DNA from: Natrialba swarupiae
Lineage (GTDB): Archaea > Halobacteriota > Halobacteria > Halobacteriales > Natrialbaceae
Assembly: GCF_008245225.1 (NCBI RefSeq)
Contig: NZ_VTAW01000035.1
Location: 1 to 35,323 of the forward strand
Length of the DNA stretch: 35,323 nucleotides
Reading direction: 5' to 3'
Shown: one piece after another, positions 9,085-13,916 of the stretch
Position numbering within the stretch: the first letter of the stretch is position 1
Layout: each line of letters starts with the position of its first letter
Program-made: the position numbers and the translations under genes
The notes under the pieces: generated by a model
Database searches by the model: none
Told to the model about the DNA's origin: nothing
What the model saw: the letters and a program-made list of their open reading frames with translations, nothing else

Positions 9085-9184
9085 CTTCCGGTACCAACCT
9101 GTTCGAGAACCGAGTATTCCGCTCGAGGGGTTCGAACGTCGGCGGCCCGTGATGGTTGTTATACTTGGTTCTATCGTTGTAAGT

Positions 9185-9193
9185 TGTTAATAA
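9185..9193 (+). promoter_or_regulatory. Shared TGTTAATAA element upstream of zinc lipoprotein
   Basis: TGTTAATAA begins 60 nt before the ATG at 9245. The same nine bases begin 61 nt before the znuA start. The element could be the TATA box of a transcript with a leader of about 30 nt, or a regulator site placed on it. Confidence 0.45.
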
Positions 9194-9244
9194 GATCGCC
9201 AGATTCATTACCAACCACCCGCAACGGAGCGGTGGTGACTACGC

Positions 9245-10237
9245 ATGACTGACAAGCCACGTCTGGCTTCCCGTCGGCGGCTGCTCGCGACGACCGGTAC
9301 GTTCGCTGCACTCGGTATCGCCGGCTGTCTCGGTGACGAGGAGAGCGGCGAATCCGAGAGCGACGACGGCCACGACGACGATCATGATCACGATGACGAC
9401 CACGATCACGACGACGATCATGATCACGATGACGACCACGATCACGACGATGACCACGACCACGACCACGACGACGGTCCGGTCTCCGAATTCGAGGTTT
9501 TAGACCGAGATCACGACGAAGACGTTCTCGTCTACGTCCACGGTGACCACTGGCACGACGATCCGCTCGTCGTCCCCCACGACGATAACCTCTCGCTCGG
9601 CGCGTACGCCGAGGACGACCACGGCGACGAGATCGAACTCGGCGACGGCGTCGAACTCGAGGCCGCGGTCGTCGACGGTGCGAACGAGATCGTCGAGTTC
9701 GACTTCCACGGCGACCACATCCACGTCCACGGCGAGGAAGACGGCTTTACCGATATCGTCTTCAAGCTCGTCGAAGACGGCGACGTCATCTACGAGACGC
9801 CCGAACTCGAGACGGAGGTCAGCGATCACGACGACCACGACCACGGTCACGATCACGGCGACGTCGAGGAGCTCAAGATCCTCGACCGCTCCGAGGATCC
9901 ACACGAGGAGGTCGCCGAGTACCACGACGGTCACTGGCACGGCGAGTTGCCACACGTCCACGTCGACGACAACGTCTCGCTCGGCGGCGAGTTCTACGAC
10001 GACCACGGCGACGAGATTCACGTCGGTGGCAGTGAGGAGTACGAACTGGCCGTCACGCTCGCCGACGGCGCGGAGGAGGGAATCGTCGAAATCGATCCCG
10101 ACGAGCACTGGCACGGCGACCACGTCCACATCTACGGCGAATCCGAGGGCGAGACCGAAGTGATCTTCCAGCTCTGGCACGACGATCACGCCGACTGGGA
10201 GACCGAGCCGATCACGATCGACGTCGAGGATCACTGA
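9245..10237 (+). CDS. His/Asp-rich Tat lipoprotein with duplicated putative zinc domain
   Basis: This is a 330-residue exported protein. The N-terminus has a twin-arginine motif (SRRRLL) and a lipobox ending AGC28, so it should be a Tat-exported lipoprotein anchored outside the cell. Residues 43-77 are a pure His/Asp linker built from five DDDHDH units. Two homologous domains follow, at about 82-192 and 209-328. They share a His-rich opening (HGDHWHDDP and HDGHWHGELP), DDHGDEI, GDHIHVHGE / GDHVHIYGE and an aromatic-ET end. A third copy of this domain lies inside the neighbouring ZnuA. I do not recognise a named family; beta-rich patterning suggests a sandwich fold. Context and His content argue for zinc binding and hand-over (inference). 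Its stop codon is supplied by repeat E2. Confidence 0.88.
   Translation: MTDKPRLASRRRLLATTGTFAALGIAGCLGDEESGESESDDGHDDDHDHDDDHDHDDDHDHDDDHDHDDDHDHDHDDGPVSEFEVLDRDHDEDVLVYVHGDHWHDDPLVVPHDDNLSLGAYAEDDHGDEIELGDGVELEAAVVDGANEIVEFDFHGDHIHVHGEEDGFTDIVFKLVEDGDVIYETPELETEVSDHDDHDHGHDHGDVEELKILDRSEDPHEEVAEYHDGHWHGELPHVHVDDNVSLGGEFYDDHGDEIHVGGSEEYELAVTLADGAEEGIVEIDPDEHWHGDHVHIYGESEGETEVIFQLWHDDHADWETEPITIDVEDH
9374..9463 (+). repeat. Five 18-bp units encoding DDDHDH
   Basis: These are in-frame near-identical 18-nt units inside the lipoprotein gene, encoding five DDDHDH hexapeptides, each with two histidines. Repeat number could vary between strains through slippage. Confidence 0.8.
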
Positions 10238-10316
10238 TACGGGTTCCTGACCCGATCGCTCAGCGCACCCGTCGCCCGGGTCGCGGATGCGCCGGAAGTG
10301 ACATACAACGGGTCGT
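10234..10316 (+). repeat. CTGATACGG-type element, copy E2
   Basis: The element opens CTGATACGGGTTCCTGACCC and contains GGGTCGCGG and CGCCGGAAGTGAC. Its first TGA is the stop codon of the lipoprotein gene. It is directly followed by copy E3. Confidence 0.7.
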
Positions 10317-10403
10317 CTGATACGGATTCCTGTCCCGATCGCCCGTCGCACCCACGCCCCCTGGGGCCGGTTCGCCGGAACTGACTGACAGGAACCCGTA
10401 TGA
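10317..10403 (+). repeat. CTGATACGG-type element, copy E3, best terminal inverted repeats
   Basis: This element of about 87 bp has the clearest ends: CTGATACGGATTCCTGTC on the left and GACAGGAACCCGTATGA on the right, which are inverted repeats over about 17 bp with two or three mismatches. It could fold into a long hairpin. Together with copy E2 it fills most of the 301-nt gap before znuA. Confidence 0.75.
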
Positions 10404-10477
10404 GAGGAGCATCACCCGCCGTTGCCGATCTTCCCGTTGTTCGGACCGTTACTAACACCGCGTGATCCGCTACCACG

Positions 10478-10486
10478 TGTTAATAA
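10478..10486 (+). promoter_or_regulatory. Shared TGTTAATAA element upstream of znuA
   Basis: The nine bases are identical to the element at 9185-9193 and begin 61 nt before the ATG at 10539. A second AT-rich patch at 10501-10516 (ataataactcttttag) could be an additional or the main TATA box. Confidence 0.45.
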
Positions 10487-10538
10487 CCAATCTTGGGCAG
10501 ATAATAACTCTTTTAGCTACGAGCACCTAGTGGCGAAT

Positions 10539-11957
10539 ATGGACATCTCACGTCGTTCTGTCTTGAAAGCCAGCGGGGGTACGCTGGCGGGAGCAGCGGT
10601 CGCCGGCTGTCTGAGCGAACCCGACGCGGGGGAGTCCAACGAGGGGGGCGACGACGACGGCAACGGTCCCACCGGATACGCCGCGTTTTTCGCCCTCTGG
10701 GACTGGGCCAATCACGTCGGCGGCGACGAGATGACGTTCGTGAATCCGATCGAAGCCGGCGAGATGGGACACGGCTGGGAGCCGCCGGCCGACATCCAGC
10801 GCGATATCGCCGACTCGGACGTCTTCGTCTACCTCGACACCGCCGAGTTCTCGTGGGCACAGAACGTCGCAACTGACCTCGAGACCGATTACGACGACGT
10901 GACGCTCATCGACGCGATGGCGGGCCTCGAGTCGCAGTTGCTGGCGGTCGACAGGGATCCGGAAGACGACCGCGAACCAGCGCGAGACCACGAGTTCGAC
11001 CCGGATGCGGTCGACGTCGCCGGTTTCGACGTCTACGACGGCCAGTCCGGGGAAGAAGTCGCCTACTGGCACGGAGACCACTGGCACGGAGAGCTCCCGG
11101 AGGTTCCCCTCGAGGGCTCGGCGACCGTCGAGGGTGTCTTCGAGGACGACGAGGGGCGTGTGCTCCCGCTCGGCGACGACGAGCAGTTTCAGATCGATGC
11201 GCGAATCATCGACGGCGCGAACGAGGACGTCCTCGAGATCGAGTCCCACGGCGATCACGTCGAGTTTCACGCGCTCGACGTCGGGCGAACGCGAGTCGTC
11301 TTCGAACTCGTTGCGGACGGGGAGGTACTCTGGGATACCAGTGCCGACAACATGACGGCCGAAGTCGTCGAGGAGCTCTCCGAATCCGACGCGCCGGAGT
11401 TTTACGACCCACACGTCTGGGTCGATCCGATCATCGCCCAGGACGTCGTCGAGACGATCGCGGACGGTCTCGCCGAGGTCGATCCCGACAACGCCGAAAC
11501 CTACGCGGAGAACGCCGCCGCCTACAACGAGCGCCTCGACGAGGTCGACCGTCAGTTCGAGGATCTCGCCGCGGAGGCCGACCGCGACGTCGCGGTCCTG
11601 GCGGGCCACGACTCGTTTCAATACATCGAACACCGGTACGACTTCGAGATCCACACGCCGGTCGGCATCTCCCCCGACGCGGCCGAGACGGAGTCGGACA
11701 TCTCGGAGGCGATTTCGATCGTCGAAGAACACGACATCGACACCATCCTCTACGATCCGTTCGAGACACCGAACCCGGACGAGGACGTCCCGCAGATGGT
11801 CGAGGTACTCCTCGAGAACACCGACGCAGAGGAGTACGCGCCCCTCTCGCCGGCCGAGGGGACCACCGAGGAGTGGAACGAGCAGGAGTGGGGATGGATC
11901 GAACAGATGGAAGAGATAAACATCCCATCGCTGCGACAGGCACTCGGTGCGGAATGA
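10539..11957 (+). CDS. znuA: ZnuA-like zinc-binding lipoprotein with inserted His-rich domain
   Basis: This 472-residue extracellular binding protein belongs to the cluster 9 (A-I) zinc/manganese ABC family. It has a Tat motif (SRRSVLK) and lipobox AGC24. Expected metal ligands are visible: His78 (GHGWEP), His292 (DPHVWVDP), His357 (AGHDSF) and probably Asp406 (LYDPF). Between the first two, where ZnuA proteins carry a flexible His-rich loop, about 115 residues (162-277) form a complete copy of the domain found twice in the upstream lipoprotein (WHGDHWHGELP, IIDGANED, SHGDHVEFH). The start at ATG 10539 is chosen because the signal peptide begins there; the frame is open back to 10422. It overlaps a candidate 40-residue frame by ATGA and leads the operon znuA-znuC-znuB. 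Confidence 0.92.
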   Translation: MDISRRSVLKASGGTLAGAAVAGCLSEPDAGESNEGGDDDGNGPTGYAAFFALWDWANHVGGDEMTFVNPIEAGEMGHGWEPPADIQRDIADSDVFVYLDTAEFSWAQNVATDLETDYDDVTLIDAMAGLESQLLAVDRDPEDDREPARDHEFDPDAVDVAGFDVYDGQSGEEVAYWHGDHWHGELPEVPLEGSATVEGVFEDDEGRVLPLGDDEQFQIDARIIDGANEDVLEIESHGDHVEFHALDVGRTRVVFELVADGEVLWDTSADNMTAEVVEELSESDAPEFYDPHVWVDPIIAQDVVETIADGLAEVDPDNAETYAENAAAYNERLDEVDRQFEDLAAEADRDVAVLAGHDSFQYIEHRYDFEIHTPVGISPDAAETESDISEAISIVEEHDIDTILYDPFETPNPDEDVPQMVEVLLENTDAEEYAPLSPAEGTTEEWNEQEWGWIEQMEEINIPSLRQALGAE

Positions 11958-12076
11958 GTTCGAACCAGGAGCGTTCACGCACGGAAGCGTCCAGGAACCA
12001 ACGTGCCCGAAACGGACGATTCGAAGTGGAAGAACTAAGCACACGCACCTCCGAGAACGGGGTGAGTTCACAGTGA
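11954..12076 (+). CDS. Candidate 40-residue ORF coupled between znuA and znuC
   Basis: This open frame starts with an ATG overlapping the znuA stop (ATGA) and ends with a TGA overlapping the znuC GTG start (GTGA). That is the arrangement expected for translational coupling on both sides. The product would be a polar 40-residue peptide (MSSNQERSRTEASRNQRARN...) with no Cys, His or membrane segment and no recognisable family. Codon use is less GC3-rich than in the flanking genes, which argues against strong coding selection. It may instead be a spacer that lets ribosomes travel from znuA to znuC. Confidence 0.3.
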   Translation: MSSNQERSRTEASRNQRARNGRFEVEELSTRTSENGVSSQ

Positions 12077-12813
12077 GTTCGATCGTCGACGTCCAGAACG
12101 TGACGTTCTCCTACGGCGAGAAGCTCGCGCTCGACGACGTCTCGTTGACCGTCGACGAGGGCGACTTCCTGGGACTGATCGGTCCGAACGGATCTGGAAA
12201 GACGACGCTGTTACACATCATGCTCGGCCTGATCGGTCCGGACCGCGGTTCGGTCGAACTGTTCGGCCAACCCGTCGAGCAGTTCGACCAGGGCGAGCGC
12301 ATCGGCTACGTCTCCCAGAAAGCGACCAGCCGCGGTGGGACGATGCCGGTCACCGTCCGTGAGTGCGTCCGAATGGGGCGGTTCGCCCACGTCGGCCACT
12401 CGAGGCTCTCCGACGAAGATCGACAAATAGCCGAGGACGCACTCGAGACGGTCGACATCGCGGATCTGGCCGACCAGCGAATCAACCAGCTCTCGGGCGG
12501 CCAGCGCCAGCGGGCGTACATCGCTCGAGCGATCGCCTCCGAGGCCGATCTGCTCGCACTCGACGAGCCGACCGTCGGCGTCGACGCCGAATCCCGCGAC
12601 GCATTCTATCGGTTGCTCGATTCGCTGAACGAGTCGGGGATTACGATCATCCTGATCGAACACGACATCGGCGTGGTCACCGATCGAGCGAATCGCATCG
12701 CCTGTATCAACACCGAACTGTACCACCACGGCGACACGGAATCGTTCGTCGAGAGCGAGGCCCTGAGCGAGGCCTACGGCGCGACGGGAACCGTCGTCCA
12801 CCACCACCACTGA
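12073..12813 (+). CDS. znuC: Zinc ABC transporter ATP-binding protein
   Basis: This 246-residue cytoplasmic ATPase is read from the GTG at 12073 (SSIVDVQNVTFSYG). All ABC motifs are present: Walker A GPNGSGKTT, signature LSGGQRQR, Walker B LLALDEPT and switch LIEHDIG. It should energise import of the metal held by ZnuA. The frame is open upstream to 11947 inside znuA, but those residues lie outside the fold. The C-terminus ends in four histidines (VVHHHH), a possible cytoplasmic metal-sensing tail. The stop codon is 2 nt from the znuB start, so znuC and znuB are tightly coupled. Confidence 0.93.
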   Translation: MSSIVDVQNVTFSYGEKLALDDVSLTVDEGDFLGLIGPNGSGKTTLLHIMLGLIGPDRGSVELFGQPVEQFDQGERIGYVSQKATSRGGTMPVTVRECVRMGRFAHVGHSRLSDEDRQIAEDALETVDIADLADQRINQLSGGQRQRAYIARAIASEADLLALDEPTVGVDAESRDAFYRLLDSLNESGITIILIEHDIGVVTDRANRIACINTELYHHGDTESFVESEALSEAYGATGTVVHHHH

Positions 12814-12815
12814 CG

Positions 12816-13916
12816 ATGAGCGGGCAGGACGAACACGCGACGGAGTCGACCCACCTCTCCGAGGAGCGATCGCAATCCGTCAAGCTGGACCCGAGACGAG
12901 CCGTCGAACTCCTCGGCGTCACACTCGTCGGCATTTTGGGGGCACTCATGATCGGATTCGTCGCACTCGACTGGCTTCGCCACTATCCCTCGCTTGGCAC
13001 ACTGCCGACGACGGCGTTCGAGCAGTTCCTGATCGCCGGCATGTGGGCCGACTACGTTCTCGGAACCAACGTCTTCCAGCACCCGTTCATGTGGCGCTCG
13101 ATCGCGACCGGCGTTCTCGTCGGTATCGTCGGACCGCTCGTCGGCACGTACCTCGTCCACAGGCAGATGGCGTTGATCGGCGAGACGCTCGCCCACACCG
13201 CCTTCGCGGGCGTCGCGATCGGACTGCTCGTCATCGGCCTCACCGGGTTCGGCGGGTCGCTGATGTTCGTCGCGCTGCTCGTGAGCGTCGTCGGTGCCCT
13301 CGCAGTCCAGTGGCTCACGGAGCGCACCAGCACGTTCGGCGACGTCCCGATCGCGATCATGCTTACCGGGAGCTTCGCCGTCGGGACGTTGCTCATCAGC
13401 TGGGGTCGCGGCCACGTCCCAGTCACGATCGACATCGAGGACTTCCTCTTTGGCAGTATGGCGGTCGTCACCGCCGACGGCGCGCGGATGATGGCGATCC
13501 TGAGCGTCGCCGTCGTCGCCATCGTGGCGGTCACGTACAAACAGCTCCTCTTTATCACCTTCGACGAGCAGGCCGCTCGAGTCGCACAGCTCAACGTTTC
13601 CGGCTACAACACGTTACTCGTCGTGATGACCGCGGTCGTCGTCGTCGGCGCGATGCAGGTTCTGGGCGTGATCCTCGTCGCGGGAATGCTCGTCATCCCC
13701 GTCGCCGCCGCCTCGCAGGTCGCCCGGAGCTTCCGCGAGACGCTGTATCTCTCGATTTTGATCGGCCAGATCTCGGTCCTCGGCGGCTTCGCGTTCGCGA
13801 TCGGCTCGAGTCTCCCCTCCGGCGGGTCGATCATCGTCGTCGCCATCGCCTTCTACCTGGTCGCAGTGGCCGCCTCGTTGCTCGCGGGTCGGTCGGCAGC
13901 GATCTCGATGCATTAG
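12816..13916 (+). CDS. znuB: Zinc ABC transporter permease
   Basis: This is a 366-residue permease of the ABC-3 (ZnuB/MntB) family. A charged cytoplasmic N-terminus of about 30 residues precedes the membrane core. About eight hydrophobic helices can be traced, with the family stretch around the cytoplasmic coupling region (IGETLAHTAFAGVAIGLL) and the ILVAGMLVIPVAAA segment. Start at ATG 12816, two nucleotides after znuC. It completes the importer with ZnuA and ZnuC. Zinc is more likely than manganese because of the His-rich accessory domains, but the metal is not proved by sequence. Confidence 0.93.
   Translation: MSGQDEHATESTHLSEERSQSVKLDPRRAVELLGVTLVGILGALMIGFVALDWLRHYPSLGTLPTTAFEQFLIAGMWADYVLGTNVFQHPFMWRSIATGVLVGIVGPLVGTYLVHRQMALIGETLAHTAFAGVAIGLLVIGLTGFGGSLMFVALLVSVVGALAVQWLTERTSTFGDVPIAIMLTGSFAVGTLLISWGRGHVPVTIDIEDFLFGSMAVVTADGARMMAILSVAVVAIVAVTYKQLLFITFDEQAARVAQLNVSGYNTLLVVMTAVVVVGAMQVLGVILVAGMLVIPVAAASQVARSFRETLYLSILIGQISVLGGFAFAIGSSLPSGGSIIVVAIAFYLVAVAASLLAGRSAAISMH

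Follow-up and report, generated by a model that had tools for sequence, protein, structure and literature searches.

An apparently unnamed histidine-rich domain, shared by a lipoprotein and ZnuA of a haloarchaeon, is a candidate zinc-capture module

We analysed a stretch of 35,323 nucleotides from Natrialba swarupiae (contig NZ_VTAW01000035.1, positions 1 to 35,323, hereafter the window), in which a domain of about 115 residues occurs three times in two proteins, a lipoprotein and the substrate-binding protein ZnuA. The window is contig C44 of a 4.2-Mb genome, and among named genomes it is matched most closely by haloarchaea of the Natrialbaceae. The genes, domain copies and operator-like repeats described for the window all lie on the forward strand. 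The open reading frame (ORF) at 9245..10237 encodes the lipoprotein of 330 amino acids. It starts with a twin-arginine-like/lipobox N-terminus (RRRLLATT...AGC), has a His/Asp-rich tract at about residues 40-78 (9362..9478, with 18-bp tandem-like repeats), and carries two domain copies delimited by hidden Markov model (HMM) matches and homology at residues 82-194 (9488..9826) and 209-329 (9869..10231). It lacks a C-terminal hydrophobic anchor, the sequence ending in ...ITIDVEDH, and as a whole gives just weak low-complexity matches in Pfam and NCBIfam. The gene at 10539..11957, read from its ATG, encodes ZnuA, a zinc-type substrate-binding protein (PF01297, E 1.1e-41) with the third copy, found by a profile match, inserted at about residues 160-276 (11016..11366), before the zinc-ligand motif DPHVW. 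A ZnuC-type ATP-binding protein (12073..12813, PF00005) has zinc/manganese ATPases as its best NCBIfam matches, below cut-off; its frame is open from 11947 and we chose the GTG at 12073 as start. The ZnuB-type permease extends from an ATG at 12816 to 13916 (12816..13916, PF00950 ABC-3, E 1.5e-53).

The three copies are homologous. An earlier note on this DNA had proposed this and placed them at residues 82-192 and 209-328 of the lipoprotein and 162-277 of ZnuA, close to the bounds given above. Aligned in pairs by Smith-Waterman, they score 232, 215 and 212 (z 20.6-21.7), and the best scores reached by 1000 composition-preserving shuffles are 90, 80 and 80. Hence, neither chance nor a common content of His and Asp accounts for the similarity. 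Identities between pairs of copies are 53/113, 43/106 and 40/108. The motifs HxxHWH, DxxG and GDH(I/V), already picked out in the note, are visible in the alignment, and HxxHxH is met in all three copies as HGDHWH, HDGHWH and HGDHWH (lipoprotein residues 99-104, 9539-9556; residues 227-232, 9923-9940; and 11070-11087 in znuA). The DGA(N/E)E stretch, also singled out there, is kept in these three copies and not in a fourth copy of the same genome. The latter belongs to another ZnuA, encoded on contig C20 (L006:4363-6837), which has one inserted domain and a ZnuB gene directly 3'. No ZnuC gene adjoins this pair in the 16 kb read, and the two may share the ATPase of the window. A third ZnuA-family protein of the genome, on contig C99, is without insert. 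A weak match on contig C29 (E 0.08) was dropped as chance; the locus reads as menaquinone-synthesis genes.

The copies have no significant match in Pfam, NCBIfam or PHROGs, as the earlier note had anticipated, and adding PADLOC gave no usable known family for the domain. Weak matches to Imm32, DUF7668, PB1, Gag_spuma_N and phrog_12668 were scattered and inconsistent among the copies, and were discarded. The commonest weak match among 83 relatives was PF04270 (Strep_his_triad; 7/83 at E up to 1, best 6e-4), which probably reflects the common HxxHxH motif; two later scans of 20 members did not capture these matches. No match to the ZinT family of Pfam came up at E values to 10, whether whole proteins or single copies were searched. 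Nothing convincing came from a comparison of the domain profile with PDB sequences, Foldseek alone had no match reaching E 0.001, and the domain had no match in plasmid records and no relative in viral contigs. From the three family libraries and a limited literature search, the domain family is apparently unnamed, and a name elsewhere is possible.

The AlphaFold2 model of copy 2, built with 82 homologs, has a predicted local distance difference test score (pLDDT) of 95.6 and consists of a beta sandwich with one short helix. The closest solved fold is an S-layer domain of SbsC (Z 9.3, root-mean-square deviation (rmsd) 2.1, 85 residues), and other immunoglobulin-like (Ig-like) domains score at Z 6-8. 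For this predicted structure, the match gives the fold class, not the function. Among 85 domains culled at 70% identity, the presence of histidine covaries within the set {H18, H21, H23} and for most pairs of {H77, H80, H82, H99, H102}, and none of the cross-set pairs reaches significance; relatedness inflates such tests, alike within and between sets. Conservation is 93% for H18, 92% for H21 and 100% for W22, residues that the seed patterns of our searches favour. Archaeal ZnuA inserts keep the triad in 95-100% of cases and often lose the second set. Since the histidines covary within and not between sets, the sequences suggest two separate putative metal sites, which matches the DHWH and GDHVH clusters that had been proposed as such in the note. 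If the domain were a structural spacer or an adhesion module of the cell surface, as may be imagined from its likeness to S-layer and filamin Ig domains, which are common spacers, and from its presence in large, repetitive surface proteins (L023, L037, L067), these histidines would be incidental. However, they are among the most conserved residues, they covary in two sets, and the domain is concentrated at metal-transport genes (see below), so that we find such a role very improbable.

The full model of the window ZnuA (pLDDT 85.5) has a core that aligns to 260/260 residues of Lmb (Z 30.5, rmsd 1.7). Hence, the predicted core is complete and the insert is an addition to it. Residues H78, H292 (the His of DPHVW), H357 and D406 occupy invariant or nearly invariant columns in 25 homologs and are, by analogy, the presumed metal ligands (three His and one acidic residue). 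In a profile alignment with AdcA, the part between profile positions 162 and 288, which contains the insert, corresponds to a few residues of the His-rich stretch of AdcA immediately N-terminal of DPHVW, and at this position a plain His-rich loop is found in many haloarchaeal ZnuAs without insert. The insert of the window ends about 16 residues N-terminal of His292. In AztC, the ligand His138 is preceded by the D-loop (117-133), which has three His essential for receiving zinc from AztD (PMC7463823). From the location of the insert at the His-rich loop, the place of the AztC D-loop, we infer that the domain stands where ZnuA would otherwise have its zinc-receiving loop. A different domain, which we call SurfN (HACxH...ATVFSQTHQPYAVTLESETGYVTFEGEPGTYAFFTD...), is inserted at the same loop in the ZnuA of another haloarchaeon (G137, L184:1492-3030), flanked by His-rich repeats. 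SurfN recurs in large surface proteins bearing the domain studied here and, in some genomes, in ORFs near ZnuA (L022, L023, L037, L067, L076, L118, L121, L137); Pfam gave no family for two SurfN-rich proteins.

The earlier note had supposed that the domain spread within one locus by duplication and insertion, which our results do not bear out at that scale. In a tree of the domains, built from a short alignment and with many weak forks, haloarchaeal ZnuA inserts fall largely together, and copies 1 and 2 of the lipoproteins mostly group by position across species. The duplications are therefore old, and the tree gives no support to a recent local one. Moreover, the domain occurs in other proteins, loci and phyla. 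In a tree of the ZnuA core, made with the insert removed, the insert state changes at least six times, of which at least four are forced by well-supported branches. In the copies aligned, the insert always adjoins the DPHxW motif, and some ZnuAs show internal duplication (L033, L036). Repeated insertion at a single site together with duplication inside ZnuA is the simplest reading of a count that cannot separate gains from losses.

To place the domain in context, we surveyed relatives and their neighbours. We scanned named genomes with two His-rich peptide patterns as seeds, a choice that favours copies keeping them, and obtained 47 domain loci. ZnuA is also encoded at 36 of the 47, with the domain or beside it, and most of these 36 also have ZnuB and an ATPase. 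In a sample of the class, 35 of 194 genomes have the domain. Architectures are varied: there are lipoproteins with a single domain (L021, L079), two or three domains, and ZnuAs with one to three internal copies. In two Thermoplasmata metagenome-assembled genomes (MAGs; L016, L017), ZnuA has both the insert and a C-terminal domain copy. In one bacterium (L027), the domain is fused to an AztD-like part (NF038015, E 5.7e-28, below the model cut-off), with ZnuA and ZnuB at the locus; AztD is a zinc metallochaperone. The same genome, a Nitriliruptoria MAG (G462), has at a separate locus (L156) a ZnuA of 518 amino acids with one domain copy, and also domain-free ZnuAs. In Methanocalculus chunghsingensis (L048:5287-6462), one copy lies between an N-terminal part without Pfam match and a C-terminal membrane anchor, next to apparent formate dehydrogenase genes and with no metal transporter nearby. 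Two more genomes of the Methanocalculus group have two-domain ORFs.

Some contexts may extend beyond zinc. In Tindallia, the domain lipoprotein is encoded between CbiQ-CbiO and CbiM, genes of a cobalt/nickel energy-coupling factor (ECF) transporter, and in an Ignavibacteriales genome the domain gene lies 3' of a TonB-dependent receptor. The domain could thus capture transition metals in general, the neighbouring transporter setting the ligand (zinc for ZnuABC, nickel or cobalt for ECF, perhaps manganese), a view also compatible with the inclusion of manganese binders among cluster A-I proteins. Yet most loci are of the ZnuABC type, one has AztD, the upstream repeat described below also marks COG0523 genes, and the metal of the Tindallia transporter could itself be zinc; we regard such breadth as unlikely. 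The association with zinc uptake that the note had drawn from a single locus turns out to be strong, with the ZnuA neighbourhood (36/47 loci), the AztD fusion and a common operator-like repeat all pointing the same way. No clear HMM match of all three copies to a known non-metal domain was found and the link to metal-transport genes is evident across genomes, so that neither of the outcomes named in the note as fatal to its proposal was seen.

The operator-like repeat lies upstream of both domain genes in the window: GTTAATAA-N14-TTACCAAC before the lipoprotein gene (9186..9215) and GTTAATAA-N14-ATAATAAC before znuA (10479..10508), where it has the same position in relatives. Both are exact genome matches, and the 30-bp motif GTTANTAA-N14-WTANYAAC occurs exactly only at these two places in the 4.2-Mb genome. 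In both genes it begins some 60 bp ahead of the ATG, an arrangement shared by most related lipoprotein genes. In 41 related genomes, we found 22 exact places, and the reversed-pattern control gave 0. These comprise 8 ZnuA genes, with or without insert, 4 COG0523 GTPase genes, 3 domain lipoproteins and 7 unassigned places. Allowing up to 2 mismatches, the motif precedes 26 of the 33 non-ZnuA and 41 of the 51 ZnuA archaeal domain genes (control 0), a set part of which served to derive it. In the genome of the window itself, sites with one mismatch include a COG0523 gene (cobW domain). One-mismatch repeats are also found on contig C39 (L176, at 19366 and 19817), where they precede genes for a Peripla_BP_2 binding protein and a FecCD permease, which may form a further metal importer belonging to the same regulon. 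The co-occurrence of COG0523 with ZnuA suggests zinc starvation. Two 74-bp direct repeats (74% identical) lie within 10234-10404 between the lipoprotein gene and znuA. They are accompanied by 16-nt inverted repeats, nearly perfect, at 10234-10249 and 10389-10404, and the whole may be a small mobile or structural element. Bacterial-type promoters and terminators were absent from 9100-10600, as expected for an archaeon.

The repeat bears on a further possibility, namely that the domain proteins act as a zinc buffer or sink, storing zinc at the surface or blunting its toxicity without passing it to ZnuA. His/Asp-rich tracts and several domains per protein imply a high capacity, and stand-alone copies occur away from transporter genes (L049, L051). 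An upstream repeat common to ZnuA and COG0523 genes points however to shortage rather than excess. ZnuA itself contains the domain, and a fusion with AztD exists, which makes a sink improbable.

Many of the named archaeal hosts are, we assume, haloalkaliphiles, Halorutilus salinus and Methanocalculus chunghsingensis being probable exceptions and the codes Ods and B79T1B8 being left unassigned. The 11 bacterial loci span about seven phyla (Tindallia, Nitriliruptoria, Izimaplasma, Mollicutes, Acholeplasmatales, Spirochaetaceae, Gemmatimonadetes, three Ignavibacteriales and Nannocystineae) and all have sample codes of soda-lake projects, two of them by interpretation. Codes B1Sed10, T1Sed, CSSed10/11 and T3Sed10 are soda-lake samples in PMC6146748, and CSSed16 and CSBr16 in PMC6704655. 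Soda-lake bins with the code MSAO are named in PMC6295475, whose main text does not have Bac2, and we read DLM2 as Deer Lake mat, PMC6748926 describing the lake and not the code. This bias is striking, although unquantified. Free zinc would be scarce at high pH; our search of the literature on zinc in soda lakes found nothing direct.

Taken together, these results lead us to propose that the domain captures zinc and feeds it to ZnuA, which is overall the best explanation and, in our view, a fairly likely one. The domain would be a compact extracytoplasmic Ig-like beta sandwich with two histidine metal sites, the first formed by the HxxHWH triad and the second by the HGDHxH strand and the HxxH turn. 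Under zinc shortage, a regulator acting at the common inverted repeat would allow expression of the lipoprotein gene and znuA. Outside the membrane, zinc would be captured by the anchored lipoprotein through its His/Asp tract and its two domains, the copy borne by ZnuA at the His-rich loop would receive the ion or hold zinc beside the cleft, and ZnuBC would import it. The parts of this proposal are not equally firm. Involvement in the uptake of zinc or a related metal is very likely, and direct zinc binding by the domain quite likely, whereas a directed hand-over from the lipoprotein to ZnuA, suggested by analogy, is only slightly favoured. Our data show the homology, the predicted fold, the location of the insert, the association with metal-uptake genes and the common repeat, whereas zinc as the main ligand, binding by these histidines, zinc starvation as the trigger and a receiving role for the ZnuA copy are inferred. 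Several observations weigh against the proposal. The cobalt/nickel transporter locus carries the domain and three loci (L048, L049, L051) have no metal transporter within reach, and therefore zinc is perhaps not the sole ligand or role. In addition, the count of insert states does not distinguish gains from losses, and in Halobacterium the regulator SirR links ZnuA-like genes to manganese (PMC3600143).

These findings bring an apparently unnamed domain family into zinc uptake as practised by archaea and by bacteria of soda lakes. They also reveal a probable metal-capture module nested in the binding protein of a transporter, in the loop that presumably accepts the metal. We tentatively go further and consider that this may be an undescribed zinc-acquisition family traded between soda-lake archaea and bacteria, and repeatedly plugged into the zinc-receiving loop of ZnuA as a built-in metallochaperone. 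The trade would then be an adaptation to alkaline waters, in which free zinc all but disappears. The soda-lake bias provides a testable link between habitat chemistry and protein architecture, and the inverted repeat a handle on an archaeal metal-starvation regulon.

Several known systems resemble this one in part. Like pneumococcal AdcA, the window ZnuA is a ZnuA-type protein with an extra putative zinc-binding domain. The extra domain of AdcA is a C-terminal ZinT, whereas here the domain lies inside the His-rich loop and has no ZinT match. The streptococcal Pht proteins (PF04270) have HxxHxH triads repeated in a surface protein, with the Pht gene in an operon with that of a ZnuA-type protein, and zinc transfer between such partners has been studied for PhtD and AdcAII (PMC3842936). 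Unlike Pht, the domain has no PF04270 match above cut-off (none for the window copies, and only the weak ones in 7/83 relatives), its profile does not match PDB sequences of that family, and it is also nested in ZnuA. AztD is likewise an extracytoplasmic zinc-binding partner of a ZnuA-type protein, and the AztC D-loop that it needs corresponds to the place of the insert (PMC7463823). It is however a beta-propeller, whereas the domain studied here, some 115 residues long, is predicted to be an Ig-like sandwich; the window lipoprotein has no NCBIfam AztD match, and an AztD-like part beside the domain is found only in L027. PA4063/DUF2796 of Pseudomonas is a small His-rich periplasmic protein of zinc trafficking with a ferredoxin-like fold (PMC8561739), and its similarity to the lipoprotein (E 1.8) is confined to the N-terminal part including the His/Asp tract, outside the domains.

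The closest described protein that we found is ZepA (All3515) of Anabaena, which is secreted and handles zinc. One of its domains is an Ig-like beta sandwich, and its conserved motif H-X(2-9)-H-(F/Y)-H resembles HxxHWH (PMC10957091). It differs by having another domain, whose fold is new, and a PEP-CTERM end, for which the window lipoprotein has neither an NCBIfam match nor a terminal hydrophobic segment, and by having no archaeal homologs according to its authors (PMC10957091). We compared the two by description, and a common origin is possible. In our judgement, the domain family and its architecture are new, while the kind of system, zinc uptake assisted by accessory proteins, is a known one.

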